Assembly: GCA_021822385.1 (NCBI GenBank)
Contig: JAKARC010000021.1
Location: forward strand, 1-41,701
Direction of reading: 5' to 3'
DNA from: Pseudomonadota bacterium
GTDB taxonomy: Bacteria; Pseudomonadota; Gammaproteobacteria; Steroidobacterales; Steroidobacteraceae
Length of the DNA: 41,701 bases
The notes under the pieces: generated by a model
What the model was told of the DNA's origin: nothing
The model's input: only the letters and a program-made list of their open reading frames with translations
The model's database searches: none
In this document: positions 611 to 20,472 of the stretch, in pieces
How positions within the stretch are numbered: the stretch's first letter is position 1
How the letters are laid out: each line of letters starts with the position of its first letter
Program-made: the position numbers and the translations under genes

Positions 611-2950
611 TCAGAACTTCGCCGAGAACCGCACACCCCAGTACCGGAACGCATCGCGCGGAATCTGTAGCCGCTGATAGGACCCCGGCGCAATGCCGTT
701 CCCGGTCGGGGTGATGAACACGGTGTAGAACTGATTGGTGAGATTGTGCCCGATGAAGCTCAGGTGGTACTTGCCGTTGTCAAAGCCTATGCGCAAGGAC
801 GCCCCGACCAGCGAGTACGCGGGCTGCTGCGCCATCGGATTGGGGTCGATATCATAGTTGGTGTGGCTGGTGTACGAATAATGCACATTCAGGCGGGCCG
901 TGAACGGGACCCCGTGCAGCGGCAGCAGCCAGCTCGGCATGATGGTCAGTTTGCTCTGCGGCGCGAACGGGAACATCTCCCCGTCATGCGAGCTGCGGCA
1001 GCTGTGCAACGCCGCGCCCGTCTGCCCGGCACACGTGTACGCGACGATGTAGGCATGGTCGTACGCGTAGCCGCCGGTCACGCTGAAGCGCGCGGTCGGT
1101 TGCCAGTCGAAATCGACCGACGCGCCCTCGGAGCGGACGACTCCGGCGTTGGTGAGACTTGTGGTCACCTCGCCGTCCGTCACCACGAAGCTATTGGCCT
1201 GGAAATTGTAGAACGTCTCGTCCCAGGCCGACAGGTTCAGGACGAGCGTGTCGTGGAACAAATTGTTCTTCAGACCGATTTCGTAGTCATTTGACGTTTC
1301 CGGCGCGACCGCGGGCGCATCGAGCGCATTCATGTTGAAGAATACATTGAATGCCGGCCCGAGCCAGCCGCGGCTGTAGGTCGCATACGCGACCGAATTG
1401 CGGCTGATGTCGTAGCGGGCGCCGGCGGTGGCCGACCAGCCGTTGTTGGCGACATTACCCGCGCCCGTATAGGGCGATGCGATTCCCGGCCCCGTGGTCG
1501 GCGCATCGATCCTGTTGAAGGTATAGGCCACGTAGTCGTGGGTATAGCGCCCGCCGGCGATCACGCTCAGACGCTTGGTGAAATGCAGCGTCGTCTGCCC
1601 ATAGACGGCCTGGCTGTCGTTGCGCGTATCGAAATGCGCAATGCCGCGGGTATCCAGATAGGTGCTGAAGCCAATGGCGCAGGGCCGGAAGCCCGTGCCA
1701 TTCACCGGCAGCGTCGAGGACGTGCACTCTTCGTCGTGACGAACGAAGTAATCCTGTTCGTCGGTGTGCCAGATGAACGCGCCGACCGTGTAGCTCGCGA
1801 ACTGATGCCGCGGCGAGGACAGGCGGATCTCCTCGCTGTACTGCTTGTAGTCGAGGCCGCCGCGATCGTGCAGATAGATGTCGAGCGGTTCGACGTAGCT
1901 GCAGCAGCTCGAACTGAAATTGCCGTCGCGATGCTGGAAATTGTACCAGCGCTGGAATGCTGAAATCGAGGTGAGCGTATCGCGTCCCAGTCGCAGCTTG
2001 ACGATCGCCGATACCCCGGCATTGGTATTGACCTGGCCCGGAACCGGGTTGTTGTTGATGTCGAGCGCATGTGGGCCGGGTACGGACGGCTGCAGCAGCG
2101 GCAGGAATACGTTCGTCCAATCTGCATTCGGCACGTATGCGCCGAGGACGTCCGCGCAACAGTTGTCGTTGGCGTGATAGTAGTTCCCCTCCAGGGTCAC
2201 CTGCAGGGAATGATTGACGTCATCGACGATCTTGCCCCGCAGCGCCTGCCGACGATACCCGTTGGTCTGCTGATGGTTGTAGAAATTGTAGATGTTGCCG
2301 GGATAGTCCTCATACAGGGCTGAGAGCTGATAGCCGATGTGGTCGTTGATCGGTCCGGAAAGATTGAGCCGGGCATGATATTCGTGACCCTCGTACCACG
2401 ATACGCTTGCGTTACCTTCGAAGTGGCGCGTGGGATTCGGTGTTTGGATGTTGATCGCGCCGGCCGTGGCGTTCATGCCGTAGAGCGTACCCTGCGGCCC
2501 GTTCAGGATCTCGATGTGGCTGATGTCGGTAAAGGCGCCAAACGCCATGCCGGGCCGACCCATCACGACGCCGTCGACGGATACGGACACGCTCGGTTCG
2601 GCGGCGGGTGAAAACGACTGCGTGCCGATGCCGCGGATCGCGAGCGTCGCATCCGAATTCGTGCTGCTGCGCTCGAAGGTGACGGTGGGAGCAACCCGCT
2701 CGATGTCCTCGGCACTGTCGATGCCGGCACTTTGCAGCGCCGAGCCGCCCAGCACCGTGACCGAGGCCGGAACCTGCAGCAGCGGCTGGCGGCGCTTTTC
2801 GGCGGTGACGACGATTTCGGCGAGCTGCGCCGTCGGTGCTGCGGTGGGCGCGGCGGCTTGAGCGGTGGGCGCCGGTGCGGCCTGCACCACGCACGACAGG
2901 GACAGCAATGCGGCCGGGATGGCCATCAGTCCAGCGCGTATCAGTCTCAT
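611..2950 (-). CDS. TonB-dependent outer-membrane receptor, likely for sulfoquinovose glycosides
   Basis: A 779-residue TonB-dependent receptor. The N-terminus is a signal peptide (MRLIRAGLMAIPAALLSLS, cleavage near AQA/AAP) followed by the TonB box EIVVTAEKR. A plug domain comes next (VPASVTVLGG, DSAEDIERVAPTVTF, GPQGTLYGMNATAGAINI), then a beta-barrel ending in aromatic F (RYWGVRFSAKF), typical of outer-membrane insertion. The ATG at 2950 is chosen because AAGGGGG lies about 6 bases upstream; a TTG five codons earlier lacks such a site. The family imports siderophores, vitamins or glycans with TonB energy. The sulfo-sugar substrate is inferred only from the shared operator 31 bases upstream of the start and from the adjacent catabolic genes. 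Confidence 0.93.
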   Translation of the reverse strand: MRLIRAGLMAIPAALLSLSCVVQAAPAPTAQAAAPTAAPTAQLAEIVVTAEKRRQPLLQVPASVTVLGGSALQSAGIDSAEDIERVAPTVTFERSSTNSDATLAIRGIGTQSFSPAAEPSVSVSVDGVVMGRPGMAFGAFTDISHIEILNGPQGTLYGMNATAGAINIQTPNPTRHFEGNASVSWYEGHEYHARLNLSGPINDHIGYQLSALYEDYPGNIYNFYNHQQTNGYRRQALRGKIVDDVNHSLQVTLEGNYYHANDNCCADVLGAYVPNADWTNVFLPLLQPSVPGPHALDINNNPVPGQVNTNAGVSAIVKLRLGRDTLTSISAFQRWYNFQHRDGNFSSSCCSYVEPLDIYLHDRGGLDYKQYSEEIRLSSPRHQFASYTVGAFIWHTDEQDYFVRHDEECTSSTLPVNGTGFRPCAIGFSTYLDTRGIAHFDTRNDSQAVYGQTTLHFTKRLSVIAGGRYTHDYVAYTFNRIDAPTTGPGIASPYTGAGNVANNGWSATAGARYDISRNSVAYATYSRGWLGPAFNVFFNMNALDAPAVAPETSNDYEIGLKNNLFHDTLVLNLSAWDETFYNFQANSFVVTDGEVTTSLTNAGVVRSEGASVDFDWQPTARFSVTGGYAYDHAYIVAYTCAGQTGAALHSCRSSHDGEMFPFAPQSKLTIMPSWLLPLHGVPFTARLNVHYSYTSHTNYDIDPNPMAQQPAYSLVGASLRIGFDNGKYHLSFIGHNLTNQFYTVFITPTGNGIAPGSYQRLQIPRDAFRYWGVRFSAKF

Positions 2951-2980
2951 GGAATCCCCCTTCAATCGTTATCGCGCATG

Positions 2981-3000
2981 TCTTATATAAGATATAAGAT
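2981..3000 (-). promoter_or_regulatory. Shared operator, site 1 (receptor gene)
   Basis: On the minus strand this reads ATCTTATATCTTATATAAGA, identical over 20 bases to the site at 15470-15489. It contains the perfect 12-bp palindrome TCTTATATAAGA preceded by a direct repeat of CTTATA. It stands 31-50 bases upstream of the receptor start, where a core promoter would be. The GntR protein of this locus is the best candidate binder (inference). Confidence 0.75.
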
Positions 3001-3069
3001 AAAAAATCAATTGAAATTCGCACACTCGAGGCTGTGCTCGGCCCGGCAAGCCAAAGGTCGAGGTACGGG

Positions 3070-4347
3070 TCAGTGGGCCTCGAGGTATCGGCGCGGCATC
3101 ACCAGCCGCAACCACATGAATGCCAATGCGAAGGAGACGGCGGCAAAGTCGAAGAACGGCGCATAGCCGCCGCCGGCGGCCAGATGCACTCCGCACCACC
3201 AGACGACGGCCATGCCGGCAATGTTGCCGGCAAACGCCCCGAGGCTGGTGACCGTACCGACGCGCTCGCTCTCAATGACGTCGGTGATCAGCGTGAAGAC
3301 GTTCACCGAGAAGCCCTGCAGGGCGGCGATGCCGATGGTGAGCAGCGCGACCGCGGTCCACACCGCGCTCGCATGCGGCACGCCGAACAGTGCAAAGCCG
3401 ATCACCGCGCAACCGGCCATCACGGCGAGCCGCGCCGCGACGGCACCCATGCCGCGCGCGACCAGGCGCGAGGATGCCCAGCCGCCGGCAATGGAGCCGA
3501 GCATCGAGCCGGCGTACATCACCGCGAGCGGCCCGCCGTAGGCGCGCACCGACAGATGGTAGGTTCGGTGCAGGAACGACGGCGTCCAGTAGAGCAGCAG
3601 CCACCAGACCTGATCGGCGAGTGCCTTGCCGATGATGATCGCCCACGTGCGCCGCTGCCGCAGAAGGCTGAGATAACTCGCGCGGGTCGGTCGGTGCGGG
3701 CGCACGCCCGCAACCGGCGCCGGCCGGCTGCGGCGCAGCATCAGCATCCACGCTCCCGTCCACACCAGGCCGGCAATGCCGAGCAGCACGAACGCCCCAC
3801 GCCAACCGACCGTCAGCGCCACGGTCGGAATGATGAGCGGGGTGATGATGGCCCCGAGGCTGTTGGCGGAGTTGACCCAGCCGAGTACGCGTGCGCGCCG
3901 CGCCGCGGCGAAGTAAGCGCCCGTGGCCTGGATGATCGCCGGGGTGGTGAGCGATTCGCTCGCGCCGAGCCCGATCCGGGCCAGCATGAATCCACCGGTC
4001 GTGCGGGCGAGCGCGTGGGCCGCATCGGCAATGCTGAAGGAAGCAACCGCCACGGGCATGGAGCGTCTGACGCCCAAGCGATCGACCACGGCGCCGGCCC
4101 ACAGATAGGACAGTGCGGTCGCGAGTTGGAACATGGCCACCACACGCCCGTAATCGGCGTCGGTCCAGCCGATACTGCGCTCGATGAGCGGCTTCAGGAT
4201 TGCGATGGACTGCAGATCGGCGTAGTTGATCACGCCGACCAGAGCGAGCAGCACCAGCAGCAGCGTACGCCCCCGCGACGCATCGACGGCCGTTTGCGCC
4301 ATGGCGTCGTTACTGCTCACGGACCCGCGGCGCTCGGCGGCCAGCAT
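3070..4347 (-). CDS. MFS transporter, anion:cation symporter type; probable SQ or SQ-glycoside permease
   Basis: A 425-residue major facilitator protein with about 12 hydrophobic segments and MFS loop motifs (RLGVRR between TM2 and TM3; VLGWVNSANSLGAIITPLI in the region usual for hexuronate-type ACS transporters). It probably carries an anionic sugar across the inner membrane. The sulfoquinovose role rests on position between the receptor and the glycerol/SQase genes. The start is uncertain: ATG 4347 has no clear ribosome site, and Met16 at 4302 is an alternative just before the first membrane segment. It is divergent from glpK with 71 bases between, and 119 bases separate its stop from the receptor start, with operator site 1 in that gap. 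Confidence 0.85.
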   Translation of the reverse strand: MLAAERRGSVSSNDAMAQTAVDASRGRTLLLVLLALVGVINYADLQSIAILKPLIERSIGWTDADYGRVVAMFQLATALSYLWAGAVVDRLGVRRSMPVAVASFSIADAAHALARTTGGFMLARIGLGASESLTTPAIIQATGAYFAAARRARVLGWVNSANSLGAIITPLIIPTVALTVGWRGAFVLLGIAGLVWTGAWMLMLRRSRPAPVAGVRPHRPTRASYLSLLRQRRTWAIIIGKALADQVWWLLLYWTPSFLHRTYHLSVRAYGGPLAVMYAGSMLGSIAGGWASSRLVARGMGAVAARLAVMAGCAVIGFALFGVPHASAVWTAVALLTIGIAALQGFSVNVFTLITDVIESERVGTVTSLGAFAGNIAGMAVVWWCGVHLAAGGGYAPFFDFAAVSFALAFMWLRLVMPRRYLEAH

Positions 4348-4418
4348 GCGCCGCTGTTGACGTCGAGCCGAATACGACCTAACTTCGGGGCTTCGTGCCC
4401 AGACCTCAGGAGATCATC

Positions 4419-5903
4419 ATGCGCGCTACCGCACTGCTTGCAATCGATCAGGGCACGAGTTCGAGCCGCGCCATCGCCTTCTCCGTGCGCGGGGAAATCC
4501 TTGCGCTCGAGCAGCAGCCGTTCGAGCAGATTTATCCGGCCTCCGGCTGGGTCGAGCATGACCCGGAGGTGATCTGGGCGACGGTCCTCTCGACGGTACG
4601 CGCGGTGTTGGCGCGGCTCGAGGAAAAACATATCGGCGTAGCGGCGATCGGCATCACCAACCAGCGCGAGACCACGCTGGTGTGGAACCGGCGTACCGGA
4701 GCGCCGCTGCACAACGCCATCGTGTGGCAGGATCGCCGCACGGCCGAGCACTGCCGTGCGCTCGCCGCGTCCGGACACGAGGCGCAACTCGAGGCGAAGA
4801 CCGGACTGCGTCTGGATCCGTACTTCTCCGCGACGAAATTGGCCTGGATCCTCGCGCACGTGCCGCAGGCGCGCGCCGCAGCGGCACGTGGCGAGCTCGC
4901 CTTCGGCACCGTCGACAGCTTTCTCATCTGGCGCCTGACCGGCGGCCGCCTGCACGCGACCGATGCCACCAACGCGAGCCGGACCGCCCTGTTCGATATT
5001 GAGCGCAACGCCTGGGATGCCGAGCTGTGCGCACTGTTCGGCGTGCCCGAGAACTCCCTGCCCGAAGTGCGCGACAGCGCCGGTGAGTTCGGACGCACCG
5101 ACCCGGGGCTGTTCTCGTCGTCGCTGCCCATCCATGGCGTCGCCGGCGACCAGCAGGCCGCGCTCATCGGACAGGCGGGCATCACCGCCGGCGAAATGAA
5201 GTGCACGTATGGAACCGGAGCCTTCGCCATGCTCAACACCGGCGCACAACGGGTCCGCTCGCGCAATCGTCTGCTCGGCACGATCGCCTACCGCCTCGGG
5301 GGAGACACCACGTACGCACTGGAAGGATCGATTCTCTCCGCGGGCGCCTGCATTCAATGGCTGCGCGACGGACTGCGGCTGTTCAGCCGCACGGCGGATG
5401 TCGAGGCGCTCGCTGCCTCGGTCAGCGACAGCGGCGGGGTGTATCTGGTGCCTGCATTCACCGGTCTCGGTGCGCCCTATTGGGACCCAGAGGCGCGCGC
5501 GGCGCTGCTCGGGCTCACGCGCGCCAGCGGACCGGCGGAAATTGCGCGCGCAGGCCTCGACAGCGTGGTGTACCAGACCTGCGATCTGCTTGCGGCGATG
5601 GCGAGCGACGGCGCGCAACCGGCCGTGCTGAAGGTCGACGGGGGCATGGCCGCAAACGGCCTGTTCCTGCAGCGTCTCGCCGATGTGCTGGCGGTGCCGA
5701 TCCGCCGGCCGAAGATTGCCGAGGCCACCGCCTGGGGCGCCGCCTGCCTGGCCGGCCTCGGCTGTGGTCTGTTCGGCACGCTCACGGAAGCCAGCCGGCT
5801 GTGGCAAGCCGACGCCGACTTCGCGCCGCGGCTCGACACCGCCACGCGCGAACAACAGCTCAGGGGCTGGCATGCCGCGCTCCAACGGGTACGCAGTCAC
5901 TGA
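4419..5903 (+). CDS. glpK: Glycerol kinase
   Basis: FGGY-family kinase of 494 residues, the usual length for GlpK. It has the N-terminal phosphate loop DQGTSSSRA, the substrate motifs GITNQRET and NAIVWQDRRT, GTVDSFLIWRLTGG, YGTGAFAMLNTG, and the C-terminal VDGGMAANGLFLQ. It makes sn-glycerol 3-phosphate from glycerol and ATP. ATG 4419 is preceded by AGGAG at 4408-4412; the in-frame GTG at 4395 has no such site. No glycerol facilitator is adjacent. The position next to sulfoquinovosidase suggests it uses glycerol freed from sulfoquinovosyl glycerol. Its 3' end overlaps that of the convergent glpD by 44 bases. Confidence 0.96.
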   Translation: MRATALLAIDQGTSSSRAIAFSVRGEILALEQQPFEQIYPASGWVEHDPEVIWATVLSTVRAVLARLEEKHIGVAAIGITNQRETTLVWNRRTGAPLHNAIVWQDRRTAEHCRALAASGHEAQLEAKTGLRLDPYFSATKLAWILAHVPQARAAAARGELAFGTVDSFLIWRLTGGRLHATDATNASRTALFDIERNAWDAELCALFGVPENSLPEVRDSAGEFGRTDPGLFSSSLPIHGVAGDQQAALIGQAGITAGEMKCTYGTGAFAMLNTGAQRVRSRNRLLGTIAYRLGGDTTYALEGSILSAGACIQWLRDGLRLFSRTADVEALAASVSDSGGVYLVPAFTGLGAPYWDPEARAALLGLTRASGPAEIARAGLDSVVYQTCDLLAAMASDGAQPAVLKVDGGMAANGLFLQRLADVLAVPIRRPKIAEATAWGAACLAGLGCGLFGTLTEASRLWQADADFAPRLDTATREQQLRGWHAALQRVRSH

Positions 5904-7440
5904 TACGCAGGCCCGCCTCGAACCAGCGCTCAAGACGTTGCACGGGCTCGCGCGCCAGAACCAACCCGAGCTTGGTCCGGCGCCACAGCACATCCTCCGC
6001 GCTGCGTGCCCACTCGCTGTCGCGCAGGTACTCGAGCTCTGCCGCGAACAAGTCAGGAGCGATCTGCGCACCGAGGTCCTCGATGCGGCGCGCCGCGCCC
6101 ATGATGCGCTCGATGCGCGTGCCATACGCCGCGCACATGCGCCGGATCATCGGCGCCGGTGCAAACGCGTAACGCGCAAGCTGTCCGCGCGTGAACGACT
6201 CGAGATCCCCGCCCGGCAAGTCCCCACCCGGCAGGGTTGCCGTGCGCGTCCAGCGCCGCGAACGGCGATTCAGGTGCGGCAGCAGTTCCGCAAGTGCATG
6301 CTCGGCGAGCCGCCGATAGGTGGTCAGCTTGCCGCCAAACACCGACAGCACGGGCGCTTGCTGCCGCGGCGCATCGACTTCGAACACGTAGTCGCGGGTG
6401 ACGGTCGAGGCGCTCACCTCGCCATTGTCATAGAGCGGCCGAACGCCGGCGTAGCTCCACACGAGCTGCTCCGGTCGCACGGGCGCGCGCAGATATTCGC
6501 CGACGGCGCCGCAGAGATAGGCGATTTCCTCATCGCTCACGCGGGCCGCCGCGGGCGTGCTACCGCAGGGCACATCCGTGGTGCCGATCAGCGTGAACGC
6601 GTCCTGAAACGGGATCGTGAACACGACCCGGCCATCGCGCCCCTGGAGCGTGTAGGCCTGCTCACCGGCATAGAGCCGCGGCACGACGATGTGACTGCCC
6701 TTGATCAGCCGCAAGGCACTGCGCCGCGGCACCCCCACTCCGGCGAGCACCTGCTCGACCCAGGGACCGGCGGCATTCACCAGCGCCCGCGCGCGCAGCG
6801 TACCGCGCTCGCCGTGCTGCGACTCGATGTCGATGCACCAGAGGCCGGACTCGCGCCGCGCGCCCCGGAAACTGCAGCGTGTCAGGATCCGCGCGCCGCG
6901 TTCGTGCGCGTCGAGCGCATTGAGGACCACCAGCCTGGCATCATCAGCCCAGCAGTCGGAATACTCGAACGCGCGCGTATAGTGCGCCTGCAGCGCATCG
7001 AAGGCCGCCGCCTGCCCGCGCCGCAATACCCGCGTCGGCGGCAGGCGCTTGCGCCCGCCGATATGGTCGTAAACGAACAGGCCTGCCCGCAGCAGCGTGC
7101 CGCTGCGCAGTCCGGCGCGAACCGGCAACACGAAGCGCAGCGGCTTGATGATGTGGGGCGCGGATGCCCACAGGACCTCGCGCTCGCTCAGACTCTCGCG
7201 CACGAGACGGAACTCGCGCTGCTCGAGATAGCGCAGTCCACCGTGAATCAGCTTCGAGGAGGCCGAGGAAGTCGCGCCGGCCAGATCCGTCCGCTCGAGC
7301 AGGAGCACCCTAAGTCCCTGCCCGGCGGCATCACGCGCGATGCCGACGCCGTTGATCCCCCCGCCGATCACCACCACATCGAGCGGCGCGCCGTCGTCCG
7401 TGCCGATGCCGCTCGAGGAGTTGACACCGTGCACTGACAT
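5860..7440 (-). CDS. glpD: Aerobic glycerol-3-phosphate dehydrogenase (FAD)
   Basis: A 526-residue GlpD-family flavoprotein. The FAD dinucleotide fold is at the N-terminus (VVVIGGGINGVGIARDAAG), followed by SSASSKLIHGGLRYLE, ALVNAAGPW, LIGTTDVPC and VFGGKLTTYRRLAEHAL, then the C-terminal GlpD domain. It oxidises glycerol 3-phosphate to DHAP and feeds quinone. The ATG directly abuts the TGA of the sulfoquinovosidase gene with zero spacing, so the two are translationally coupled. With glpK this completes use of the glycerol released from SQ-glycerol. Converging 3' overlap with glpK is unusual and leaves no room for a terminator. Confidence 0.95.
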   Translation of the reverse strand: MSVHGVNSSSGIGTDDGAPLDVVVIGGGINGVGIARDAAGQGLRVLLLERTDLAGATSSASSKLIHGGLRYLEQREFRLVRESLSEREVLWASAPHIIKPLRFVLPVRAGLRSGTLLRAGLFVYDHIGGRKRLPPTRVLRRGQAAAFDALQAHYTRAFEYSDCWADDARLVVLNALDAHERGARILTRCSFRGARRESGLWCIDIESQHGERGTLRARALVNAAGPWVEQVLAGVGVPRRSALRLIKGSHIVVPRLYAGEQAYTLQGRDGRVVFTIPFQDAFTLIGTTDVPCGSTPAAARVSDEEIAYLCGAVGEYLRAPVRPEQLVWSYAGVRPLYDNGEVSASTVTRDYVFEVDAPRQQAPVLSVFGGKLTTYRRLAEHALAELLPHLNRRSRRWTRTATLPGGDLPGGDLESFTRGQLARYAFAPAPMIRRMCAAYGTRIERIMGAARRIEDLGAQIAPDLFAAELEYLRDSEWARSAEDVLWRRTKLGLVLAREPVQRLERWFEAGLRISDCVPVGARHASP

Positions 7441-9459: not shown

Positions 9460-9476
9460 GTCAAGCCTGAAGTAGA

Positions 9477-9494
9477 CTTATATCTTATATAAGA
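9477..9494 (-). promoter_or_regulatory. Shared operator, site 2 (sulfoquinovosidase-glpD)
   Basis: CTTATATCTTATATAAGA on the plus strand matches 18 of the 20 bases of the other two sites, including the palindrome TCTTATATAAGA. It is in the divergent region between the sulfoquinovosidase gene and the GntR regulator gene. It is close enough to the sulfoquinovosidase start (18 bases) to overlap promoter or leader, which points to repression, and it may also autoregulate the regulator. Confidence 0.75.
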
Positions 9495-11984: not shown

Positions 11985-12871
11985 CCGGCCTGCTCCAGCT
12001 CAATGGCGATGGTGCCGGCGAGCGTCCCACCGGGTTCGAGCTGCCGGTAGCCGGTGATGACCGACGGCGGACGATGGACGGCATCGGCAATGTGGGTGAC
12101 CGGCTCGACGGCGAAGAACCCTCGGCGCACGGGCGTGAACACTCGCAACACCGAAAAGACTGCGCTCGCCCGCAGCACAATCGAGCCGACGGCGCTTCCC
12201 GCGATGCGCGCCAGGCCGCGCCAGCCATTGAAGTCATGATCGAGATCAAGCGCGGCAATCTCGCGCGGCCGACTGAAATCCCAGGCCGGGCCGCTGACCG
12301 GCTGTGCGGGCAAGCGGTCCGCGCCGTTGCTCCACGCGCCGGCGGCATCGAACTGCAGTGTTTGGCCCGGCTCGAAGCGCAGGTAAGGATGCCAACCCAG
12401 GCCCGCCGGCCACGCCACCGTGTCACGATTCTGCAGCGCGAGCGCGAGCACCAGCCCCCGCGCCGTCAGCTCGAAGCGCTGCCACGCCGCGAAAGCAAAC
12501 GGCCAGTCCGCGCGGACATCGGGCGCATATCGCAAGCTCAGCTCTGCCGAGCGCTCGTCCGCACGCAGGATCTGCCAGGGGCGCTGCCAGCCGATGCCAT
12601 GCACCGCGTGCGGTTCGGGCGGAAAATTCGGGCGCAGCGGGTAAATGCGACCGCCAACGGGCAGCCGAGCATCGGCAATGCGATTGGCATAGGGTAGAAG
12701 GGGGAAACCGGCCGCCGCGCGCACACCGAGCGCCGTTACGGCCTCGGCCTCGGTCGGCCGCAGGACGGGTGCGCCGGCATGGCTTAGCTCAAGGAGTGAG
12801 CCGCCGAGCCGCGCATCGATCTGCGCGCGCCAGCGCCCGTGGGTGAGAACGGTGAGATCGGCTGACGCCAT
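11981..12871 (-). CDS. Aldose 1-epimerase family; sulfoquinovose mutarotase
   Basis: A 296-residue galactose-mutarotase-like protein. Family catalytic positions can be seen: His91 (AVHGIGW), His161 (GLGWHPYLRF), Glu256 (FFAVEPVTH), and the substrate arginine in PYANRI (Arg64). SQase releases alpha-SQ and the SDR usually takes the beta anomer, so a mutarotase is a standard companion in SQ gene clusters. It begins 3 bases after the aldolase stop codon and overlaps the lactonase start. Specificity for SQ is inferred from context. Confidence 0.87.
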   Translation of the reverse strand: MASADLTVLTHGRWRAQIDARLGGSLLELSHAGAPVLRPTEAEAVTALGVRAAAGFPLLPYANRIADARLPVGGRIYPLRPNFPPEPHAVHGIGWQRPWQILRADERSAELSLRYAPDVRADWPFAFAAWQRFELTARGLVLALALQNRDTVAWPAGLGWHPYLRFEPGQTLQFDAAGAWSNGADRLPAQPVSGPAWDFSRPREIAALDLDHDFNGWRGLARIAGSAVGSIVLRASAVFSVLRVFTPVRRGFFAVEPVTHIADAVHRPPSVITGYRQLEPGGTLAGTIAIELEQAG

Positions 12872-12874
12872 CGG

Positions 12875-13672
12875 TCAGTACAGGCTGGCGCCGCCCGTCG
12901 GCCGCTGGCGCTGCGCAAGCACCTCGAGCCACTCGGCGGCGCGGCCGGTCAACAGGGCGAGATCGGAGCTCACGGCGCACCAGTGGTAACCATAGTCGAG
13001 GAAACGGCGCACCATCTGTGGATCGCCACCAACGATCCCGATCGGCTTGCCCACGGCGCGAGCGCGCGCCGCCGCACGGGCGATCAGCGCCTGCACCTGC
13101 GCATGGCCGATGTCTCCGATGTGGCCGAGTGCAGCCGCGAGATCGCCCGGACCGACGAACAATGCATCGACTCCGGGCACGGCGGCGATCGGCTCGAGCT
13201 GATCGATCGCCTCGGGCGTCTCCAGCTGCACGACGACCGCGATACCCTCGTTGGCCGTGCGCAGGTAATCACGCGTGTGCCCGTAGCGTGAGCCGCGATG
13301 CATGCCCGCAACCCCCCGCACCCCCGCGGGCGGATACCGCGTATACGCGACGGCGGCGCGGGCCTGCTCGGCGCTCTGGATGAAGGGAAACATGACACTG
13401 GCCGCACCCGCATCGAGCACCTGCTTCACCCGCACCGGATCGGCGCTGGCCAGGCGCACCAGGGGCGCGGCCGCTGTCCCGGCCAATGCGCGCAGGAGCT
13501 CGATGGCCGTCGCCACGGACAGAGGACTGTGTTCCATGTCCACGACGAGGAAGTCGAAGCCGCTGTGTCCCATCGCTTCGGCCACCGCCGCCGACGCGGA
13601 CATGAGCCACGAGCCGATCGCCGGCCGGTCCGTTCGCTCGAGCACGGCCGCTGTGAACGCATTGACTGTCAT
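12875..13672 (-). CDS. HpcH/HpaI-family aldolase; 2-keto-3,6-dideoxy-6-sulfogluconate aldolase
   Basis: A 265-residue class II pyruvate-type aldolase of the HpcH/HpaI family. Key residues: His48 (DMEHSP), Arg73 (LVRLAS), Gln149 and metal ligand Glu151 (VQLETPEAI), metal ligand Asp177 (VGPGDLA). It would split KDSG into pyruvate and 3-sulfolactaldehyde, the carbon-carbon cleavage of the sulfo-ED pathway. ATG 13672 (MTVNAFTAA) is chosen because the upstream extension is arginine-rich shadow sequence; it begins 16 bases after the dehydratase stop codon. Confidence 0.88.
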   Translation of the reverse strand: MTVNAFTAAVLERTDRPAIGSWLMSASAAVAEAMGHSGFDFLVVDMEHSPLSVATAIELLRALAGTAAAPLVRLASADPVRVKQVLDAGAASVMFPFIQSAEQARAAVAYTRYPPAGVRGVAGMHRGSRYGHTRDYLRTANEGIAVVVQLETPEAIDQLEPIAAVPGVDALFVGPGDLAAALGHIGDIGHAQVQALIARAAARARAVGKPIGIVGGDPQMVRRFLDYGYHWCAVSSDLALLTGRAAEWLEVLAQRQRPTGGASLY

Positions 13673-13688
13673 GATGCCTCGCTTCGAG

Positions 13689-15461
13689 TCAGAAAATCGC
13701 CGGTTCGGGCGTGGGCGCACAGCCGGACAGGAAGTCGAAATCACACCCTTGTGGGGCTTGCGTGACATGCGCCTGGTAGAGCGCCGCGTACGAGCGCTGA
13801 TAGGCGCGCGCCGGCGCCTGCCAGGCGGCGCGCCGGGCGGCAAGCTCCTGCTGGGACACCAGCATGTCGAGCCGACCCGCCGGCACGTCGAGACGCACGC
13901 GATCGCCGCTCTGCAGCAGCGCGAGTGGGCCGCCGATGGCCGCCTCCGGCGCCACATGCACGATGCAGCACCCGTAGTGCGTGCCGCTCATGCGCCCGTC
14001 GCAGATGCGCACCATGTCGCGCACGCCCCGGGCCAGCAGTTTGCGGGGAATCGGCAGATTGCCCCACTCGGGCATGCCGGGCGCGCCGACCGGGCCGCTG
14101 TTGCGCAACACGAGCACGCTGTTCTCGTCCACCGCCAGAGCCGGATCGTCGATGCGCGCAGCGAGCTCCGCGGGCGAGTCGAAAACGAGCGCTGCGCCCT
14201 CGTGGCGCAGCAGGCGCGGCTCGGCGGCGCTCGACTTGAGCACCGCACCGTCGGGACAGAGGCTGCCGCGCAGGACATCGAGCGTACGCCCGCGGCTCAA
14301 CGGCACCACCGGATCGTCGAGCCCGCGGATCACCGTATCGTCATAACACTGCGCGCCGGCAATCGCCGCTCCCAGCGTGCATCCCTGCACGGTGCGGCAG
14401 GTCAGATCGAGGCGTGAGCCGAGCTTCACGAGCAGCGCCGGCAGTCCGCCGGCGAAATAGAAATCCTCCATCAGTCTGTCGCCCGAAGGAAACAGATTGG
14501 CGCACACCGGGATGTCGCGCGCCACCGCCCCGAGATCATCCAAAGTCAGACGGATGCCGGCGCGGCCCGCGATCGCGATCAGATGAATCGCAGCGTTGGT
14601 GGAGCCGCCGAGCGCCATGTAGACCGTGGCCGCGTTGCGGAATGCCGCCGCCGTGAGGATGTGCGCGGGGCGCAGGTCCTCCTGCACCATCGCGACGATG
14701 CGCGCGCCGCACTCGGCCGCCATGCGCACGTGTCCGGAATCGGCCGCCGGAATCGAGGATGCACCGCAGAGCGTCATTCCCAAGGCCTCGGCGATGGCGC
14801 TCATCGTCGAGGCCGTTCCCATGGTGTTGCAGGTGCCGATGGATCGGGTCATGCGCGACTCGAGATCGATCCAGTCCTCGGCCGTGATGTTCCCGGCGCG
14901 CAGTTCGTCCCAGTACTTTTTCGTATGCGTCCCCGCACCGACACGCACGCCGCGCCACTGTCCGTTCGACATCGGGCCGGCCGGGCACACGAGCGCCGGC
15001 AAGTCCATGCTGATCGCGCCCATCAGCATGCCCGGAATCGATTTGTCGCACCCCCCGAGCAGCACCGCTCCATCGATCGGATGCGAGCGCAGCAGCTCCT
15101 CGGTCTCCATGGCGAGAAAATTCCGGTACAGCATGGTCGAGGGCTTGACCATGACTTCTCCCACCGAGAGCGCCGGCAGCTCGACCGGATAGCCCCCGGC
15201 AAGCAAAACACCGCGCTTGATGGCCGTGGCGCGCTCGCGCAGGTGGGCATGACACGGGCTCATGTCGCTCCACGTATTGATGATCGCGATCACCGGCCGG
15301 CCGAGGAAATCCTCGCGGCGCAGCCCCATCTGCTGCGTGCGCTGCCGGTGCGCGAAGCCGCGCATGTCCTCGCGCTCGTACCAGCGCGCGCTGCGCAAGG
15401 CGCGCGCTGCGCTCGGCGGCGGCTCAGCCGCGGCGCGGGAGGATCTTGTCTTTGTCGTCAT
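13689..15461 (-). CDS. IlvD/Edd-family sulfogluconate dehydratase
   Basis: A 590-residue Fe-S sugar-acid dehydratase. Three cluster cysteines are at 70 (SDMSPCH), 138 (GGCDK) and 211 (GTCNTMGT), with spacing of 68 and 73 residues as I recall for the [2Fe-2S] L-arabinonate dehydratase; Lys140 would be the carbamylated metal ligand. The C-terminal motif GRMSGTHYGCCIVHVAPEAAIGGPLAL supplies the catalytic serine. It converts 6-deoxy-6-sulfogluconate to KDSG. First gene of the minus operon; operator site 3 is only 9-28 bases before its ATG, so its leader is very short and the operator must overlap the promoter or ribosome-binding region. Confidence 0.9.
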   Translation of the reverse strand: MTTKTRSSRAAAEPPPSAARALRSARWYEREDMRGFAHRQRTQQMGLRREDFLGRPVIAIINTWSDMSPCHAHLRERATAIKRGVLLAGGYPVELPALSVGEVMVKPSTMLYRNFLAMETEELLRSHPIDGAVLLGGCDKSIPGMLMGAISMDLPALVCPAGPMSNGQWRGVRVGAGTHTKKYWDELRAGNITAEDWIDLESRMTRSIGTCNTMGTASTMSAIAEALGMTLCGASSIPAADSGHVRMAAECGARIVAMVQEDLRPAHILTAAAFRNAATVYMALGGSTNAAIHLIAIAGRAGIRLTLDDLGAVARDIPVCANLFPSGDRLMEDFYFAGGLPALLVKLGSRLDLTCRTVQGCTLGAAIAGAQCYDDTVIRGLDDPVVPLSRGRTLDVLRGSLCPDGAVLKSSAAEPRLLRHEGAALVFDSPAELAARIDDPALAVDENSVLVLRNSGPVGAPGMPEWGNLPIPRKLLARGVRDMVRICDGRMSGTHYGCCIVHVAPEAAIGGPLALLQSGDRVRLDVPAGRLDMLVSQQELAARRAAWQAPARAYQRSYAALYQAHVTQAPQGCDFDFLSGCAPTPEPAIF

Positions 15462-15469: not shown

Positions 15470-15489
15470 ATCTTATATCTTATATAAGA
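15470..15489 (+). promoter_or_regulatory. Shared operator, site 3 (divergent sulfo-ED and suy operons)
   Basis: ATCTTATATCTTATATAAGA lies in the 54-base gap between the divergent dehydratase and suyA genes, and is identical over 20 bases to the reverse complement of site 1. A single bound regulator could shut off both five-gene operons. TATAAG and TATAT elements within it could also serve as -10 boxes. Confidence 0.8.
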
Positions 15490-15515: not shown

Positions 15516-15806
15516 ATGCCGAAAACTCCGCAACTGCTCGTCCACGATCACCGCGACAACGTCGGGGTGGTGGTGGTCGAGAACCTCGCCGCCGGAACCG
15601 ACATCTTCGGTGTCGTGACCGAGAATAACAGTGAAATTCACGCGGTGTGCAATCAGGACGTGCCGATCGGCCACAAGGTTGCGCTGCGCGACCTGGCCGT
15701 CGGCGAGGCCGTGATCAAGTACGGGCAGGATATCGGCAAGGTCATCCAGCCGATCCGTCGCGGCGATCACGTGCACACCCACAATCTCAAGACCAAGCGC
15801 TGGTAA
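15516..15806 (+). CDS. suyA: (R)-sulfolactate sulfo-lyase, small subunit
   Basis: A 96-residue SAF-domain protein of the UxaA/SuyA type. The core VGVVVVENLAAGTDIFGVV, then IGHKVALRDLAVGEAVIKYGQDIG and the tail HVHTHNLKTKRW match SuyA as I remember it from Paracoccus; the KTKRW ending separates it from altronate dehydratase small domains. With SuyB it eliminates sulfite from (R)-sulfolactate to give pyruvate. ATG 15516 has AGAGG 9 bases upstream. The gene is in frame with a long shadow frame upstream, which is not part of it. SuyB follows after 3 bases. Confidence 0.93.
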   Translation: MPKTPQLLVHDHRDNVGVVVVENLAAGTDIFGVVTENNSEIHAVCNQDVPIGHKVALRDLAVGEAVIKYGQDIGKVIQPIRRGDHVHTHNLKTKRW

Positions 15807-15809: not shown

Positions 15810-16985
15810 ATGACAACTGCAAACCGTACCGTCTGGGCCTACCGGCGCGAGAATGGCCGCGTCGGCGTACGCAATCACGTCGCCATCCTGCCCGTCGATG
15901 ATATTTCCAACGCCGCCTGCGAGGCGGTCGCAGCGCAGATCAAGGGCACACTCGCCCTGCCGCATGCCTACGGCCGCCTGCAGTTCGGCGAGGACCTCGA
16001 TCTGCACTTCCGTACCATGATCGGCACCGGCGCCAATCCGAACGTTGCCGCCTGCATCGTCATCGGCATCGAGCCGCAGTGGACCGAGCAGATCGTCGCG
16101 GGCATCGCCCGCACCGGCAAGCCCGTCGCCGGGTTCGCCATCGAAGGCAACGGCGATATTGCGACGATCAGCGCCGCGGCGCGCAAGGCGAAGGAATTCG
16201 TGCACTTGACGAGCGCGCAGGTCCGCCAGGAATGCCCGCTTAGCGAGCTGTGGGTCGCGGCCAAGTGCGGCGAAAGCGATACCACGACCGGACTGGCCTC
16301 CTGCCCGACGGTGGGCAACATGTACGACAAGCTGATCCCGGCTGGATTGTACGGATGCTTCGGGGAAACCTCGGAGCTCACCGGCGCGGAGCACCTCGCG
16401 GCGGCACGTGCCGCGAGCCGCGAGATCGCTGAGAAGTTCATGCGCACCTTCAACGCCTATCAGCAGGAGGTAATCGAAGCCCACAAGACCTCGGACCTCT
16501 CCGACAGTCAGCCGACCAAGGGCAACATCGCCGGGGGCCTCACCACCATCGAGGAAAAGGCGCTCGGGAATCTGGAGAAGATCGGCAAACGCGTCCGCTT
16601 CATCGACGTGCTGCAGCCGGCCGAGGCGCCGGCCCGCGGGCCGGGACTTTATTTCATGGATACCTCTTCGGCCGCGGCGGAGTGCCTGACGCTGCAGGCG
16701 GCTGCCGGTTACGTCGTGCATTGCTTCCCGACCGGTCAGGGCAATGTCTGCGGCAATCCCATCATGCCGGTCATCAAGATCAGCGGTAATCCACGCACGG
16801 TGCGCACCATGAGCGAACATATCGACCTCGATGTCTCGGGGGTGATACGGCGGGAGATGACCATCGCCGAGGCCGGTGACGCGCTGATCGAGGCCATCGT
16901 GCAGACGGCCAATGGCCGCTACAGCTGCGCGGAAGCGCTCGGTCACCGTGAATTCGTCATGACCAAGCTCTATCGCAGCGCCTGA
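15810..16985 (+). CDS. suyB: (R)-sulfolactate sulfo-lyase, large subunit
   Basis: A 391-residue UxaA-superfamily large subunit, the standard length for SuyB. Diagnostic stretches include [85 protein letters not shown] and [14 protein letters not shown], all close to SuyB from memory. It forms the iron-dependent lyase with SuyA: (R)-3-sulfolactate -> pyruvate + sulfite. An altronate or galactarate dehydratase is the alternative, less likely given the split subunits and the flanking sulfolactate dehydrogenases. It precedes comC by 12 bases. Confidence 0.93.
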
Positions 16986-16997: not shown

Positions 16998-18014
16998 ATG
17001 CCCACGCTCAGTATCGCCGCGTGCACGCAGCTCGCCGAGCAGGCCCTCATCGCGAGCGGGGCCGCTCCCGGTCCGAGCGCCTCGACGGCTCGCGCCCTGG
17101 TCGCAGCCGAAGCCGACGGACAGAGCGGACATGGACTGGGCCGGCTTGAGAGCTACAGCGCGCAGGTGCGCGCCGGCAAGATCGACGGGCGTGCCGTGCC
17201 GAGCGTGCAGCCGCTGAGCGCAGCTGCGGTTCATATCGATGCGGCGAACGGCTTTGCCTATCCGGCCCTGGACCTCGCGCTCGAAGTCTTGCCGCAACGG
17301 CTTGCGGACTGTGCCCTCGCGATCGCGACAATCTCGCGCTCACACCACATTGGTGCCGCCGGCTACACGGTCGAGCGCCTCGCGCAACGCGGCTGTATCG
17401 CGTTCATCTGCTCGAACACCCCGAGCGCCATGGCCTTCGCCGGCGGCGTGCGCCCGATGATGGGAACCAATCCGATCGCCTTTGCCGCGCCGGTTCCCGG
17501 CCGCGCCCCGCTGGTGATCGACATGGCGCTCTCGCAGGTGGCCCGCAGCCGCATCGTTGCGGCGCAGAAGGCCGGCCAACCGATTCCCCCGCAGTGGGCC
17601 ATCGACCGCGCCGGGCAACCGACGAGCGATCCAACCGCGGCCCTCGCGGGCGCCCTGACGCCGGCCGGTGGAGTCAAAGGGGCTGCGCTTGCGCTCATGG
17701 TGGAGATCCTGTGCGGCGCCCTCGCCGGCGGCCACTACAGTTGGGAGGCGAGTTCCTTTCTCGATGCGCATGGGCCGGCGCCAGCGGTCGGTCAGGTGTT
17801 GCTCGCGCTCGAGGCTGCGCGCCTGTCCGGCGGTGGGTTCGCCGGGCGCATGCGCGAGCTGTGCGCAGTCCTCGGCGCCGAGAGCGGCGTGCGCACGCCC
17901 GGGGATCGCCGGCTCGCGAGCCGAGCTCGCGCCGAATCCCGCGGCATCGAGATCAGCGCCGAGTTGCATGCCACCATCGTTGCGCTCGCGGCGGGCGCGG
18001 AGGCGGGGAAATGA
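16998..18014 (+). CDS. comC: (R)-sulfolactate dehydrogenase, malate/L-lactate dehydrogenase family
   Basis: A 338-residue Ldh2/MDH2-family oxidoreductase with the usual motifs: active-site SGHGLGRLESY, SRSHHIGAAGYTVERLA, CSNTPSAMAFAGG and MMGTNPIAFAAP. In Chromohalobacter, ComC reduces sulfopyruvate to (R)-sulfolactate, working with SlcC to invert the stereocentre so that SuyAB can act. The same pair sits here directly behind suyAB. Its stop overlaps the slcC start as ATGA (18011-18014). Family members also use malate, lactate or ureidoglycolate, so the assignment rests on context. Confidence 0.88.
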   Translation: MPTLSIAACTQLAEQALIASGAAPGPSASTARALVAAEADGQSGHGLGRLESYSAQVRAGKIDGRAVPSVQPLSAAAVHIDAANGFAYPALDLALEVLPQRLADCALAIATISRSHHIGAAGYTVERLAQRGCIAFICSNTPSAMAFAGGVRPMMGTNPIAFAAPVPGRAPLVIDMALSQVARSRIVAAQKAGQPIPPQWAIDRAGQPTSDPTAALAGALTPAGGVKGAALALMVEILCGALAGGHYSWEASSFLDAHGPAPAVGQVLLALEAARLSGGGFAGRMRELCAVLGAESGVRTPGDRRLASRARAESRGIEISAELHATIVALAAGAEAGK

Positions 18015-18940
18015 CCGATGTCGTGATCAGCGAGTTCATGGACGAGTCTGCGATCCGCGAGCACCTCGGTGAATTCACCGTGCACTACGATCCGCAGCTG
18101 GTGGATCAGCCGCAACGGCTGCAGGCACTGCTCGGCGATTGTCGTGCGCTGATCGTGCGCAATCGCACGCAAGTGCGCGCACCGCTCCTCGGTGCCGCGC
18201 CGCGGCTGCGGGTGGTCGGACGATTGGGGGTTGGGCTCGACAACATCGACGTGGCGGCCTGCGCGGCCCGCAACATCCGGGTGTGCCCGGCGACCGGCGC
18301 CAACGATCTGGCGGTTGCCGAATACGTGCTCACGGCCGCCCTGCTGCTGCTGCGACGCGCCTGGTTCGCGACCGCGGCGGTGGCGGCCGGCACATGGCCA
18401 CGCATGGAACTGATCGGGCGGGAGCTGTCCGGAAAATGCCTGGGACTGGTCGGGTTCGGGGCCATCGCACGCCTGACGGCCCGCAAGGCGCTCGCGCTCG
18501 GCATGACGGTGGCGGCCTATGATCCGTTCGTCGTGCCTGAGGATGCGGCGTGGCACGGCATCGAACGGCGGGAGCTTGTGCCGCTGTTGGCGATGAGCGA
18601 CGTCGTCAGTCTGCATACCCCCCTCACGGCGCAGACCCGCAATCTGCTCGATGCCGCGGCAATTGCCTCCATGCGCCCCGGCGCGATCCTGATCAACGCG
18701 GCGCGCGGCGGCGTGCTGGATGAGGCGGCGTTGATCGAGGCGCTGCGGACCGGGCGACTGGGGGGCGCGGCGCTCGACGTATTCGCGAGCGAGCCGCTCA
18801 CGGCGGCCGCGGGCGCCGCCTGGCGCGAGCTACCGAATGTCGTGCTGACGCCCCACATTGCCGGCGTCACCGAGGAATCGAACGTTCGCGTCAGCCAGGT
18901 CATCGCTCGGAGCGTGCGCGAGACACTGCAGAGCCAGTGA
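18011..18940 (+). CDS. slcC: (S)-sulfolactate dehydrogenase, D-2-hydroxyacid dehydrogenase family
   Basis: A 309-residue NAD-dependent D-isomer-specific 2-hydroxyacid dehydrogenase. Rossmann motif GLVGFGAIARLTARKALALG (Ala replaces the last Gly of GxGxxG), catalytic Arg in NAARGGVLDE, Glu in FASEPL and His in TPHIAG. It would oxidise (S)-sulfolactate, the usual sulfo-ED end product, to 3-sulfopyruvate. ATG 18011 overlaps the comC stop; the open frame continues upstream only as an arginine-rich shadow of comC. Confidence 0.88.
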   Translation: MTDVVISEFMDESAIREHLGEFTVHYDPQLVDQPQRLQALLGDCRALIVRNRTQVRAPLLGAAPRLRVVGRLGVGLDNIDVAACAARNIRVCPATGANDLAVAEYVLTAALLLLRRAWFATAAVAAGTWPRMELIGRELSGKCLGLVGFGAIARLTARKALALGMTVAAYDPFVVPEDAAWHGIERRELVPLLAMSDVVSLHTPLTAQTRNLLDAAAIASMRPGAILINAARGGVLDEAALIEALRTGRLGGAALDVFASEPLTAAAGAAWRELPNVVLTPHIAGVTEESNVRVSQVIARSVRETLQSQ

Positions 18941-18999
18941 CCGGGCGGCGCACGGTAACGGCGCTGTAACGGTGATTCAATCCGACCCCGGGATAAGTT

Positions 19000-20472
19000 A
19001 TGCAACTCAAAGATGCGACGCTGTTGCGGCAGCAATGTCTGATCGATGGCCTGTGGATGGACGCCGAGAGCGGCGCGACCGCCCCGGTGCACAACCCTGC
19101 CACTGGCGCGCCGCTCGGCCGTGTGCCGCAGATGGGCGCGACCGAAACGCGCCGCGCCATCGAAGCGGCGAGCCGCGCTCTGGCCGGGTGGGCCGCCCGC
19201 GCGGCGAAGGATCGCGCGGCCGTGCTGCGCCGCTGGTACGAGCTCATCCTCGAGCATCAGAATGATCTTGCCGTGCTGATGACCGCCGAGCAGGGCAAGC
19301 CGCTCGCCGAAGCGCGCGCGGAGGTGGCATTTGCCGCCGGCTTCATCGAATGGTTCGGCGAGGAGGCCAAACGCATCTACGGAGATGTGATTCCCGGACA
19401 CAGCGCCGATAAGCGCATCCTGGTGCTGCGGCAACCGATCGGGGTCGTGGCGGCCATCACGCCGTGGAATTTTCCGGCGGCCATGATCACCCGCAAGGCG
19501 GGTCCGGCGCTCGCGGCCGGCTGTACATTCGTGTGCAAACCGGCGCCGCAGACACCCTACTCGGCGCTCGCGCTCGCCGAACTGGCAACCCGCGCCGGCG
19601 TGCCGCCCGGGGTCTTCAACGTCGTGACGGGTCCGGCGGCGGTGATCGGCGCGCAGATGACGAGCCATCCGCTGGTGCGCAAAGTGACCTTCACCGGTTC
19701 GACCAGCGTCGGCAAGCAGCTGATGGCGCAATGCAGCGGCACGCTGAAGAAGATTTCGCTCGAACTCGGCGGTAACGCGCCGTTCATCGTGTTCGATGAC
19801 GCCGACATCGATGCCGCCGTACAGGGCGCCATCGTCAGCAAGTACCGCAATACGGGCCAGACCTGCGTGTGCCCGAACCGCTTTCTGATCCAGGAGGGCG
19901 TGTACGAGGAATTTGCGCACAAGCTCAAAGCCGTGGTTGCACAGCTGCGGGTGGGCAATGGTCTGTTGGGTCCAACCGATCAAGGGCCCCTGATCGACGC
20001 CAACGCCCTCGCCAAGGTGGAGCAACATCTGGCCGATGCCATCAAGAAAGGCGCGAAAATCATCACCGGCGGCAAGCCGCATGCGCTCGGCGGCACGTTT
20101 TTCGAGCCGACCGTGCTGATCGACGCCACGGCGCAGATGCGCATCGCCCAGGAAGAGACCTTCGGCCCCGTCGCCCCCCTGTTCCGCTTTGCAACCGAGG
20201 CCGAGGCCATTGCTCTCGCCAACGACACCACATCCGGGCTGGCATCGTACCTGTACACCCGCGACCTCGCCCGCAGCTGGCGGGTGGGCGAGGCGCTCGA
20301 ATACGGCATGGTCGCCCTGAACACCGGGCTGTTCTCGACGGAGGTCGCGCCCTTTGGCGGCGTCAAGGAATCGGGCATCGGCCGCGAAGGCTCGAAATAC
20401 GGAATACTCGATTACACCGAGCTCAAATACATGTGCGTCGGCGGCATCGAGAAGCCCCCAGTGCCCGCATGA
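19000..20472 (+). CDS. Aldehyde dehydrogenase, probable 3-sulfolactaldehyde dehydrogenase
   Basis: A 490-residue GabD-like aldehyde dehydrogenase with Asn157 (TPWNFPA), Glu255 (LELGGNAP) and catalytic Cys289 (NTGQTCVCPNR), plus FTGSTSVGK of the cofactor site. Sulfo-ED clusters use a succinate-semialdehyde-dehydrogenase relative to turn sulfolactaldehyde into sulfolactate. ATG 19000 is preceded by GGGATAAG. It follows slcC after 59 bases and ends the plus operon, so the enzyme joining the two halves of the pathway is transcribed with the sulfolactate genes. Succinate semialdehyde remains a possible substrate. Confidence 0.88.
   Translation: MQLKDATLLRQQCLIDGLWMDAESGATAPVHNPATGAPLGRVPQMGATETRRAIEAASRALAGWAARAAKDRAAVLRRWYELILEHQNDLAVLMTAEQGKPLAEARAEVAFAAGFIEWFGEEAKRIYGDVIPGHSADKRILVLRQPIGVVAAITPWNFPAAMITRKAGPALAAGCTFVCKPAPQTPYSALALAELATRAGVPPGVFNVVTGPAAVIGAQMTSHPLVRKVTFTGSTSVGKQLMAQCSGTLKKISLELGGNAPFIVFDDADIDAAVQGAIVSKYRNTGQTCVCPNRFLIQEGVYEEFAHKLKAVVAQLRVGNGLLGPTDQGPLIDANALAKVEQHLADAIKKGAKIITGGKPHALGGTFFEPTVLIDATAQMRIAQEETFGPVAPLFRFATEAEAIALANDTTSGLASYLYTRDLARSWRVGEALEYGMVALNTGLFSTEVAPFGGVKESGIGREGSKYGILDYTELKYMCVGGIEKPPVPA

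Follow-up and report, generated by a model that had tools for sequence, protein, structure and literature searches.

In a 41,701-nucleotide contig of an uncultured Steroidobacteraceae bacterium (assembly GCA_021822385.1, contig JAKARC010000021.1; this whole stretch is called the window below), positions 611–20472 hold a cluster of genes that very probably constitutes a single regulon for the complete aerobic use of sulfoquinovose (SQ), with the sulfo-Entner–Doudoroff (sulfo-ED) pathway and the desulfonation of sulfolactate combined in one cell. In the textbook examples of SQ breakdown the work is usually shared between two species. The initial annotation of this DNA had proposed that one organism does both, and the evidence from sequence, conserved residues, synteny and a shared operator supports that proposal and leads us to favour a single pathway.

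Gene content and predicted pathway

Codon-position analysis and translation of the interval, with naming through Pfam and NCBIfam, reveal 16 intact genes, all of them open. The genes for a TonB receptor, a major facilitator superfamily (MFS) carrier, GlpD, a GH31 glycosidase, a short-chain dehydrogenase/reductase (SDR), a lactonase, a mutarotase, an aldolase of the HpcH/HpaI type and a dehydratase of the IlvD/Edd type run leftward, while those for SuyA, SuyB, ComC, SlcC and an aldehyde dehydrogenase run rightward, as do, each singly, GlpK and the regulator GntR. The divergent start codons of IlvD and SuyA are separated by 54 bases. All 16 genes are under purifying selection, the ratio of nonsynonymous to synonymous substitution rates against relative G003 (loci L103 and L136) being 0.055–0.23 with zero stops, over alignments of which some are partial. 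The genes for SQ hydrolysis, sulfo-ED and SlcC/ComC/SuyAB that had been described as lying side by side were all found intact, as were the uptake and glycerol salvage genes (TonB receptor, MFS, GlpK and GlpD) assigned to the same cluster. The accompanying claim that every step is encoded holds for all of the genes that were named, but the cluster has no gene for sulfite disposal.

The predicted substrates and directions of these enzymes would together form a continuous route. SQ glycosides would enter through the TonB receptor and then the MFS carrier, and the GH31 enzyme would split them into SQ and glycerol, the latter to be consumed by GlpK and GlpD. Mutarotase, SQ dehydrogenase, lactonase, dehydratase and aldolase would convert SQ to pyruvate and (S)-sulfolactaldehyde, from which the aldehyde dehydrogenase would form (S)-sulfolactate. 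SlcC and ComC would then carry (S)-sulfolactate through sulfopyruvate to (R)-sulfolactate, allowing SuyAB to release a second pyruvate and sulfite. Both dehydrogenases are needed at this point, as the sulfolactaldehyde of sulfo-ED is the (S) form and the lyase is (R)-specific (PMC12421959, PMC9594981). The GntR protein would bind an 18-bp element that lies in three promoter gaps; its likeliest mode of action is repression that is relieved by a metabolite of the sulfolactate type.

The best match of the SDR in the Protein Data Bank (PDB) is the SQ 1-dehydrogenase 9gwu, with 289 bits against 219 bits for the runner-up. The alignment, from which the positions are counted, shows that it keeps Asp99, Arg101, Gln198, Arg152, Arg154, Asp45 and the Asn-Ser-Tyr-Lys tetrad. 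As described for the enzyme, Arg152 binds the sulfonate, Arg154 is bridged to it by water, Asp45 serves NAD, and Asp99, Arg101 and Gln198 make contacts (PMC12133307). The next homologue, 4lvu, lacks both arginines, 152 and 154. The window protein has the make-up of a sulfo-ED dehydrogenase, a PF13561 SDR with the contact residues of PpSQDH. For the GH31 protein the best PDB match, at 935 bits over 663 residues, is 5ohy, an entry named “Alpha-glucosidase yihQ” that we take to be the Agrobacterium sulfoquinovosidase. Residues K245, E270, R283, W286, Y491 and D455 of 5ohy, presumably the sulfonate-binding and catalytic set of GH31 sulfoquinovosidases, are all matched, the equivalents in the window being K253, E278, R291, W294, Y500 and the acid D464. 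The lactonase, the PF00920 dehydratase and the PF03328 aldolase agree with the sulfo-ED set at the level of families. The aldehyde dehydrogenase has 8c54 (RlGabD) among its PDB relatives and by motif holds the WNF, both Arg and the Cys-X-Cys of that enzyme, residues that are common to succinate-semialdehyde dehydrogenases.

At the sulfolactate end, a tblastn search of plasmids with SuyB matched 252 records; among the 60 of these listed, 13 have 59.6–76% identity and the next has 39.8%. One of the 13, at 65.6%, is a UxaA-family gene near annotated hpsN/hpsO in Cupriavidus pinatubonensis HN-2, and hpsN/hpsO represent the route from 2,3-dihydroxypropane-1-sulfonate (DHPS) to sulfolactate. By its sequence SuyB is placed in the sulfolactate-lyase group, and together with the adjoining small SAF-domain protein SuyA it is predicted to act on (R)-sulfolactate. 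Genes of PF02826 and PF02615 adjoin SuyAB, as would the racemising pair SlcC and ComC, and Paracoccus seriniphilus (L102) likewise has SuyAB with SlcC and ComC homologues, along with uptake genes. It is exceedingly improbable that the cluster instead encodes an unsulfonated aldonate pathway (L-arabinonate, for example) with a split UxaA/GarD-type dehydratase in the place of SuyAB. The IlvD, HpcH, aldehyde dehydrogenase and SuyAB families do all include such members, but SuyB falls within the 60–76% group that contains the hpsN/hpsO locus and not the group below 40% (among the matches listed), and the SQ contact residues are kept in both the SDR and the GH31 protein. Sulfofucose is a very unlikely substrate in place of SQ, even though the pathway of Paracoccus wurundjeri follows a similar overall logic, with an ED phase that leads into SlcC, ComC and SuyAB (PMC12421959). 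That pathway uses a PF13378/PF02746 dehydratase, and no sulfofucosidase was identified for it (PMC12421959), whereas among the cluster proteins the dehydratase is PF00920, not PF13378/PF02746, and is accompanied by a GH31 protein with sulfoquinovosidase residues; the window SDR also resembles SQ dehydrogenase, in a comparison with solved structures.

Recurrence of the junction and a proposed shared operator

The cluster belongs to a metagenome-assembled genome (MAG; G000) of 2.6 Mb in 90 contigs, 85% complete, in which no 16S rRNA gene was found. A scan of 482 relatives for IlvD left 80 loci, which overlap with a set of 148 genomes in which G000 is itself counted. IlvD, HpcH and SuyAB occur together in 15 of the 80 loci (L019–L031, L042 and L055), all from MAGs according to their record titles, and GH31 lies within the fetched stretch in nine of these and not in the other six. 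L088 (Paracoccus onchidii), L092 (Aurantimonas) and L094 (Sagittula marina) have IlvD and HpcH within about 10 kb of SuyAB, with neither an SQ dehydrogenase of the SDR family nor a GH31 of this type in the stretch. The remaining 62 loci, including all those from rhizobia and Microvirga, have no SuyB at 65% identity or more. IlvD adjoins SuyA in 11 of the 148 genomes, G000 included. SuyB is present in 18, this IlvD in 12 and this GH31 in 11, and each of the 11 genomes with GH31 also has SuyB and this IlvD, on one contig for GH31 and SuyB in nine of them and on separate contigs in G028 and G039; GH31 without SuyB was found in none of the 148. These genome counts are not independent, because a single genus accounts for ten of the 11. 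The presence of the junction in 15 of the 80 loci and in 11 of the 148 genomes shows that the tandem cluster is no accident of assembly. The same overlapping counts answer the question that the initial annotation had left to a genome search, namely how many combined clusters of sulfoquinovosidase, sulfo-ED and SuyAB there are. On plasmids, none of the 13 SuyB records (at least 59.6% identity) was found among 37 records matching GH31 (35 of them at 44% or more), as far as the matches listed go.

The 18-bp element, CTTATATCTTATATAAGA, which the initial annotation does not mention, has three exact copies in the window, where shuffled sequences would be expected to have none. With up to three mismatches allowed, the 85%-complete MAG contains it only at the three cluster sites and their overlapping registers. 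The same operator thus stands in several promoter gaps and is confined to the cluster, as in one regulon, and its binding by GntR is predicted. A 19-mer form is present in all ten of the tandem relatives searched, and among the 42 occurrences listed only G038:C159 is without a known connection to the cluster. Seven of these relatives have a copy no more than about 155 bases from a receptor match, and in G038 (L024) and G050 (L111) the receptor adjoins GntR and one copy is common to both. No receptor was found in the stretches taken from G063, and in G006 (L139, 221–3948) the receptor matches as two pieces about 1.4 kb apart.

When at most two mismatches and any position in the stretch are allowed, the core palindrome of the element, GTCTTATATAAGAC, occurs in 17 of the 18 loci with SuyB, against two of the 62 without it, so that the sulfosugar genes seem to have been captured into a sulfolactate regulon. 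Upstream of IlvD the palindrome has 4–7 mismatches in all 62 loci without SuyB. A second set comprised 17 SuyAB loci without tandem sulfo-ED genes, one of them unscorable, with a threshold of three mismatches upstream of SuyA; here the palindrome was found in ten of 11 loci with a GntR homologue and in none of five without one, the stretch being short for some of these five. For comparison, this threshold is reached by 54 of 3000 random stretches of 262 bases from the loci, true sites included. We infer from these patterns that the sulfolactate module is regulated by GntR, whose control was extended to the sulfosugar genes.

There are several observations that weigh against the proposed pathway and its regulation. 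The dehydratase exceeds the cut-off for L-arabinonate dehydratase by 0.3 bits (882.3 vs 882), and IlvD proteins 69–73% identical to it occur in loci that have no SQ genes in the stretch. For both reasons its substrate rests on context, making it the front-end enzyme with the least secure assignment. The aldehyde dehydrogenase resembles succinate-semialdehyde dehydrogenase equally well, and ComC reaches 160 bits on the L-sulfolactate dehydrogenase model, far under the cut-off of 500. L079 and L098 carry the palindrome with SuyAB absent from the stretch, in L127, from Caballeronia, a GntR homologue is present and the palindrome is not, the palindrome upstream of SuyA has 3–4 mismatches in L025, L027, L028 and L030 (four in all of these except L027), and upstream of IlvD itself it has six in L031 and L055. 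No gene of PF03601, the family of the putative exporter in other SuyAB loci, was found in the 85%-complete MAG, and sulfolactate could be the cargo of the MFS carrier itself. Two TauE-family genes are present on other contigs of the MAG, with no link to the cluster. The L079 locus (1752–14600, Acidocella facilis ATCC 35904) combines GH31, SDR, IlvD, HpcH, SlcC and ComC; its stretch lacks SuyAB and carries the element once, at 5488.

Another view is that the cluster performs ordinary sulfo-ED with excretion of sulfolactate, and that SuyAB, SlcC and ComC serve imported sulfolactate, the two gene sets merely adjoining. Characterised sulfo-ED bacteria do excrete sulfolactate (PMC12890257, PMC9594981), SuyAB is accompanied by uptake systems in other loci, and no substrate is known for the window's MFS carrier. 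We consider this explanation unlikely. Both gene sets diverge from a single operator-bearing gap and the element also fronts the receptor and GH31, while GH31 without SuyB, as counted above, does not occur in the 148 genomes. Of the genes found near SuyAB in L099, L102 and L126, those for tripartite tricarboxylate (TTT) and TRAP transporters, a dicarboxylate symporter and hpsNOP, none was found in the scan of the 16 cluster proteins.

Phylogeny, related clusters and neighbouring genes

A quick-method tree of 85 dehydratases brings together the 17 that are accompanied by SuyB and SQ genes, plus that of L019, in one clade with a Shimodaira–Hasegawa-like approximate likelihood ratio (SH-aLRT) support of 98. 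This clade is separate from that of rhizobial sulfo-ED and includes sequences from a Caulobacteraceae and a Niveispirillum MAG. In the SuyB tree, which has 35 rows after removal of duplicate and identical copies from 59 matches, the 18 tandem rows fall with five SuyBs of relatives lacking the dehydratase in a clade supported at 100/97 that takes in G076 and G081 and excludes G095 and G140. Only this clade is claimed, because the outgroup branch is very long and the tandem label requires three changes. Both trees fit a transfer of the package between classes, but mis-binned MAG contigs could give the same picture.

A second type of front end is suggested by the SuyB relatives. In G076 (L116) and G081 (L113), SuyAB, ComC, SlcC, GntR, GlpD and GlpK adjoin a PfkB kinase, a DeoC/LacD-type aldolase and an isomerase, while in G095 (L119) SuyAB, ComC, SlcC and GntR are found with the kinase and isomerase only. 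At E 1e-15 or better the L116 isomerase matches a single NCBIfam model, that of sulfoquinovose isomerase, with 268 of 700 bits and so below cut-off, and a PDB search with it gave zero matches. The L113 aldolase scores in NCBIfam as tagatose 1,6-diphosphate aldolase and has a DUF2090 protein as its best PDB match, with sulfofructosephosphate aldolases lower down. Isomerase, PfkB kinase and LacD-type aldolase together are, we assume, the family make-up of the second sulfo-Embden–Meyerhof–Parnas pathway (sulfo-EMP2). The three loci may be sulfo-EMP2-like clusters that share the desulfonating back end, an assignment less secure than that of the window. The GH31 proteins of L113 and L116 were not counted as sulfoquinovosidases, being only about 31% identical to that of the window; the L116 protein scores best as an alpha-xylosidase, below cut-off, and the L113 protein is 68% identical to it. 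On balance we lean slightly toward a wider proposal, in which a sulfolactate-responsive GntR regulon captured sulfosugar catabolism. One regulator, palindrome and SlcC/ComC/SuyAB back end would then serve either a sulfo-ED or a sulfo-EMP2-like front, sensing an internal C3 sulfonate and co-inducing the uptake, hydrolysis and desulfonation of SQ.

Table 1. Positions and assignments of the cluster genes and element copies in the window (KDSG, 2-keto-3,6-dideoxy-6-sulfogluconate)
Feature	Position	Strand	Basis
TonB-dependent outer-membrane receptor, candidate for uptake of SQ/sulfoquinovosyl glycerol	611..2965	-	matches to TonB receptor families of NCBIfam, each below cut-off
Operator copy 1, upstream of TonB receptor	2981..2998	-	exact CTTATATCTTATATAAGA
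MFS transporter, candidate for inner-membrane uptake	3070..4302	-	PF07690 150 bits; D-galactonate transporter subfamily 152 bits, below cut-off
Glycerol kinase GlpK	4419..5903	+	TIGR01311 651 bits, cut-off 590
Glycerol-3-phosphate dehydrogenase GlpD	5860..7440	-	NF008899 694 bits, cut-off 360
Predicted GH31 sulfoquinovosidase (YihQ type)	7441..9459	-	NF007746 (PRK10426, alpha-glucosidase by description) 879 bits, cut-off 553
Operator copy 2, GH31/GntR gap	9477..9494	+	exact CTTATATCTTATATAAGA
GntR/UTRA regulator, proposed operator binder	9626..10345	+	PF00392, PF07702
SDR, predicted SQ 1-dehydrogenase	10351..11115	-	PF13561 186 bits; PDB 9gwu best match
SMP-30 lactonase, predicted sulfogluconolactone hydrolysis	11115..11984	-	PF08450 264 bits
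Aldose 1-epimerase, predicted SQ mutarotase	11981..12871	-	PF01263 103 bits
HpcH/HpaI aldolase, predicted KDSG aldolase	12875..13672	-	PF03328 148 bits
IlvD/Edd dehydratase, putative sulfogluconate dehydratase	13689..15461	-	PF00920 337 bits
Operator copy 3, IlvD/SuyA divergent gap	15472..15489	+	exact CTTATATCTTATATAAGA
SuyA, predicted sulfolactate sulfo-lyase small subunit	15516..15806	+	PF08666 SAF domain; 5′ of SuyB in related loci
SuyB, predicted sulfolactate sulfo-lyase large subunit	15810..16985	+	PF04295, PF20629
ComC, predicted (R)-sulfolactate dehydrogenase	16998..18014	+	PF02615 299 bits
SlcC, predicted (S)-sulfolactate dehydrogenase	18011..18940	+	PF02826 184 bits; homologues adjoin SuyAB in other sulfolactate loci
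Aldehyde dehydrogenase, putative sulfolactaldehyde dehydrogenase (SlaB/GabD type)	19000..20472	+	PF00171 567 bits

Two candidates for sulfite disposal lie outside the cluster, and in the stretches of relatives that were compared neither of them accompanies the tandem cluster. The first, 2 kb past the cluster, is a sulfite/nitrite-reductase-like gene (22899–24587) that forms part of 22390–24587 with a DUF934 gene and could serve to assimilate the released sulfite. The second, at 28312–29965, is a molybdopterin oxidoreductase (28312–29085; MsrP/SorA-like, below cut-offs) with a cytochrome b561 partner. Directly past the aldehyde dehydrogenase gene is a protein of the fatty-acid-hydroxylase family (20614–21549), and a tetratricopeptide repeat protein with a sulfotransferase domain is at 25060–27066. 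From 28000 to 41701 the G+C content drops to about 0.58–0.64 from about 0.63–0.70, and this region, which carries a PIN-domain gene (32463–32912), a DDE transposase (33493–34521) and a phage-type integrase (37598–38374), is perhaps a mobile island. Scans of the whole window with Rfam, at the gathering threshold, and for tRNA found nothing. Some relatives have extra genes between the MFS carrier and the receptor (L136, 6387–8802; L137, 4807–8995; L140, 7333–9853). Those of L137, the only insert scanned, encode a GFO/IDH oxidoreductase, a 3-keto-disaccharide hydrolase, a GMC oxidoreductase and gluconate-2-dehydrogenase subunit 3, a set suggestive of C3 oxidation of glycosides. In the window, genes of this kind are absent between the MFS carrier and the receptor.

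Relation to known systems

If the proposed regulon is correct, a lineage that couples sulfo-ED to desulfonation through a single operator would use every one of the six carbons of SQ and itself release the sulfite. The operator would provide a simple search tag for such loci; it connects the sulfolactate module with a regulator and suggests a candidate TonB receptor for SQ glycosides.

Known sulfo-ED clusters share with the window the SDR, lactonase, PF00920 dehydratase, PF03328 aldolase, mutarotase and presumably the sulfolactaldehyde dehydrogenase (PMC9594981), and in many of them also GH31. The end products of sulfo-ED are pyruvate and sulfolactate (PMC12890257), and known sulfo-ED excretes the latter, whereas the window cluster has SlcC, ComC and SuyAB under a common operator, a gene content that speaks against sulfolactate as an excreted end product. 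The window also differs from known sulfo-ED clusters in having a TonB receptor and an MFS carrier, with no gene for an ABC transporter in the cluster.

Sulfoglycolysis and SuyAB do occur in one cluster in the extended sulfo-transaldolase (sulfo-TAL) systems of Thermotogae and Chloroflexi, for which full use of the SQ carbon was proposed (PMC9594981), although these belong to other phyla and have a transaldolase front end instead of an ED one. In the tandem sulfofucolytic–sulfolactate sulfolyase pathway of Paracoccus wurundjeri an ED-type front is followed, as in the window, by SlcC, ComC and SuyAB, and sulfite release was demonstrated; the coexistence of both pathways in one bacterium was there termed unusual (PMC12421959). 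It differs in its sulfofucose substrate, its PF13378/PF02746 dehydratase and the lack of an identified sulfofucosidase and of a confirmed sulfolactaldehyde dehydrogenase (PMC12421959). Ensifer sp. HO-A22 has sulfo-ED and desulfonation in one genome, with full mineralisation of SQ proposed, and, compared by description only, pairs sulfo-ED with DHPS-degrading clusters (PMC10599462). The sulfolactate loci of Chromohalobacter salexigens and Paracoccus resemble the window in their SlcC, ComC and SuyAB (PMC9594981), and that of P. seriniphilus also in its GntR and palindrome, but the neighbours of the latter are uptake and DHPS-type dehydrogenase genes.

No cluster of sulfo-ED with SuyAB was found described in the titles or opening abstract lines of the open-access papers listed. 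The idea that one organism degrades SQ fully is already published. Because full degradation has been described or proposed for the sulfo-TAL, Ensifer and sulfofucose cases, what may be new here is confined to the single regulon for sulfo-ED and desulfonation, its operator and the swap of front ends.

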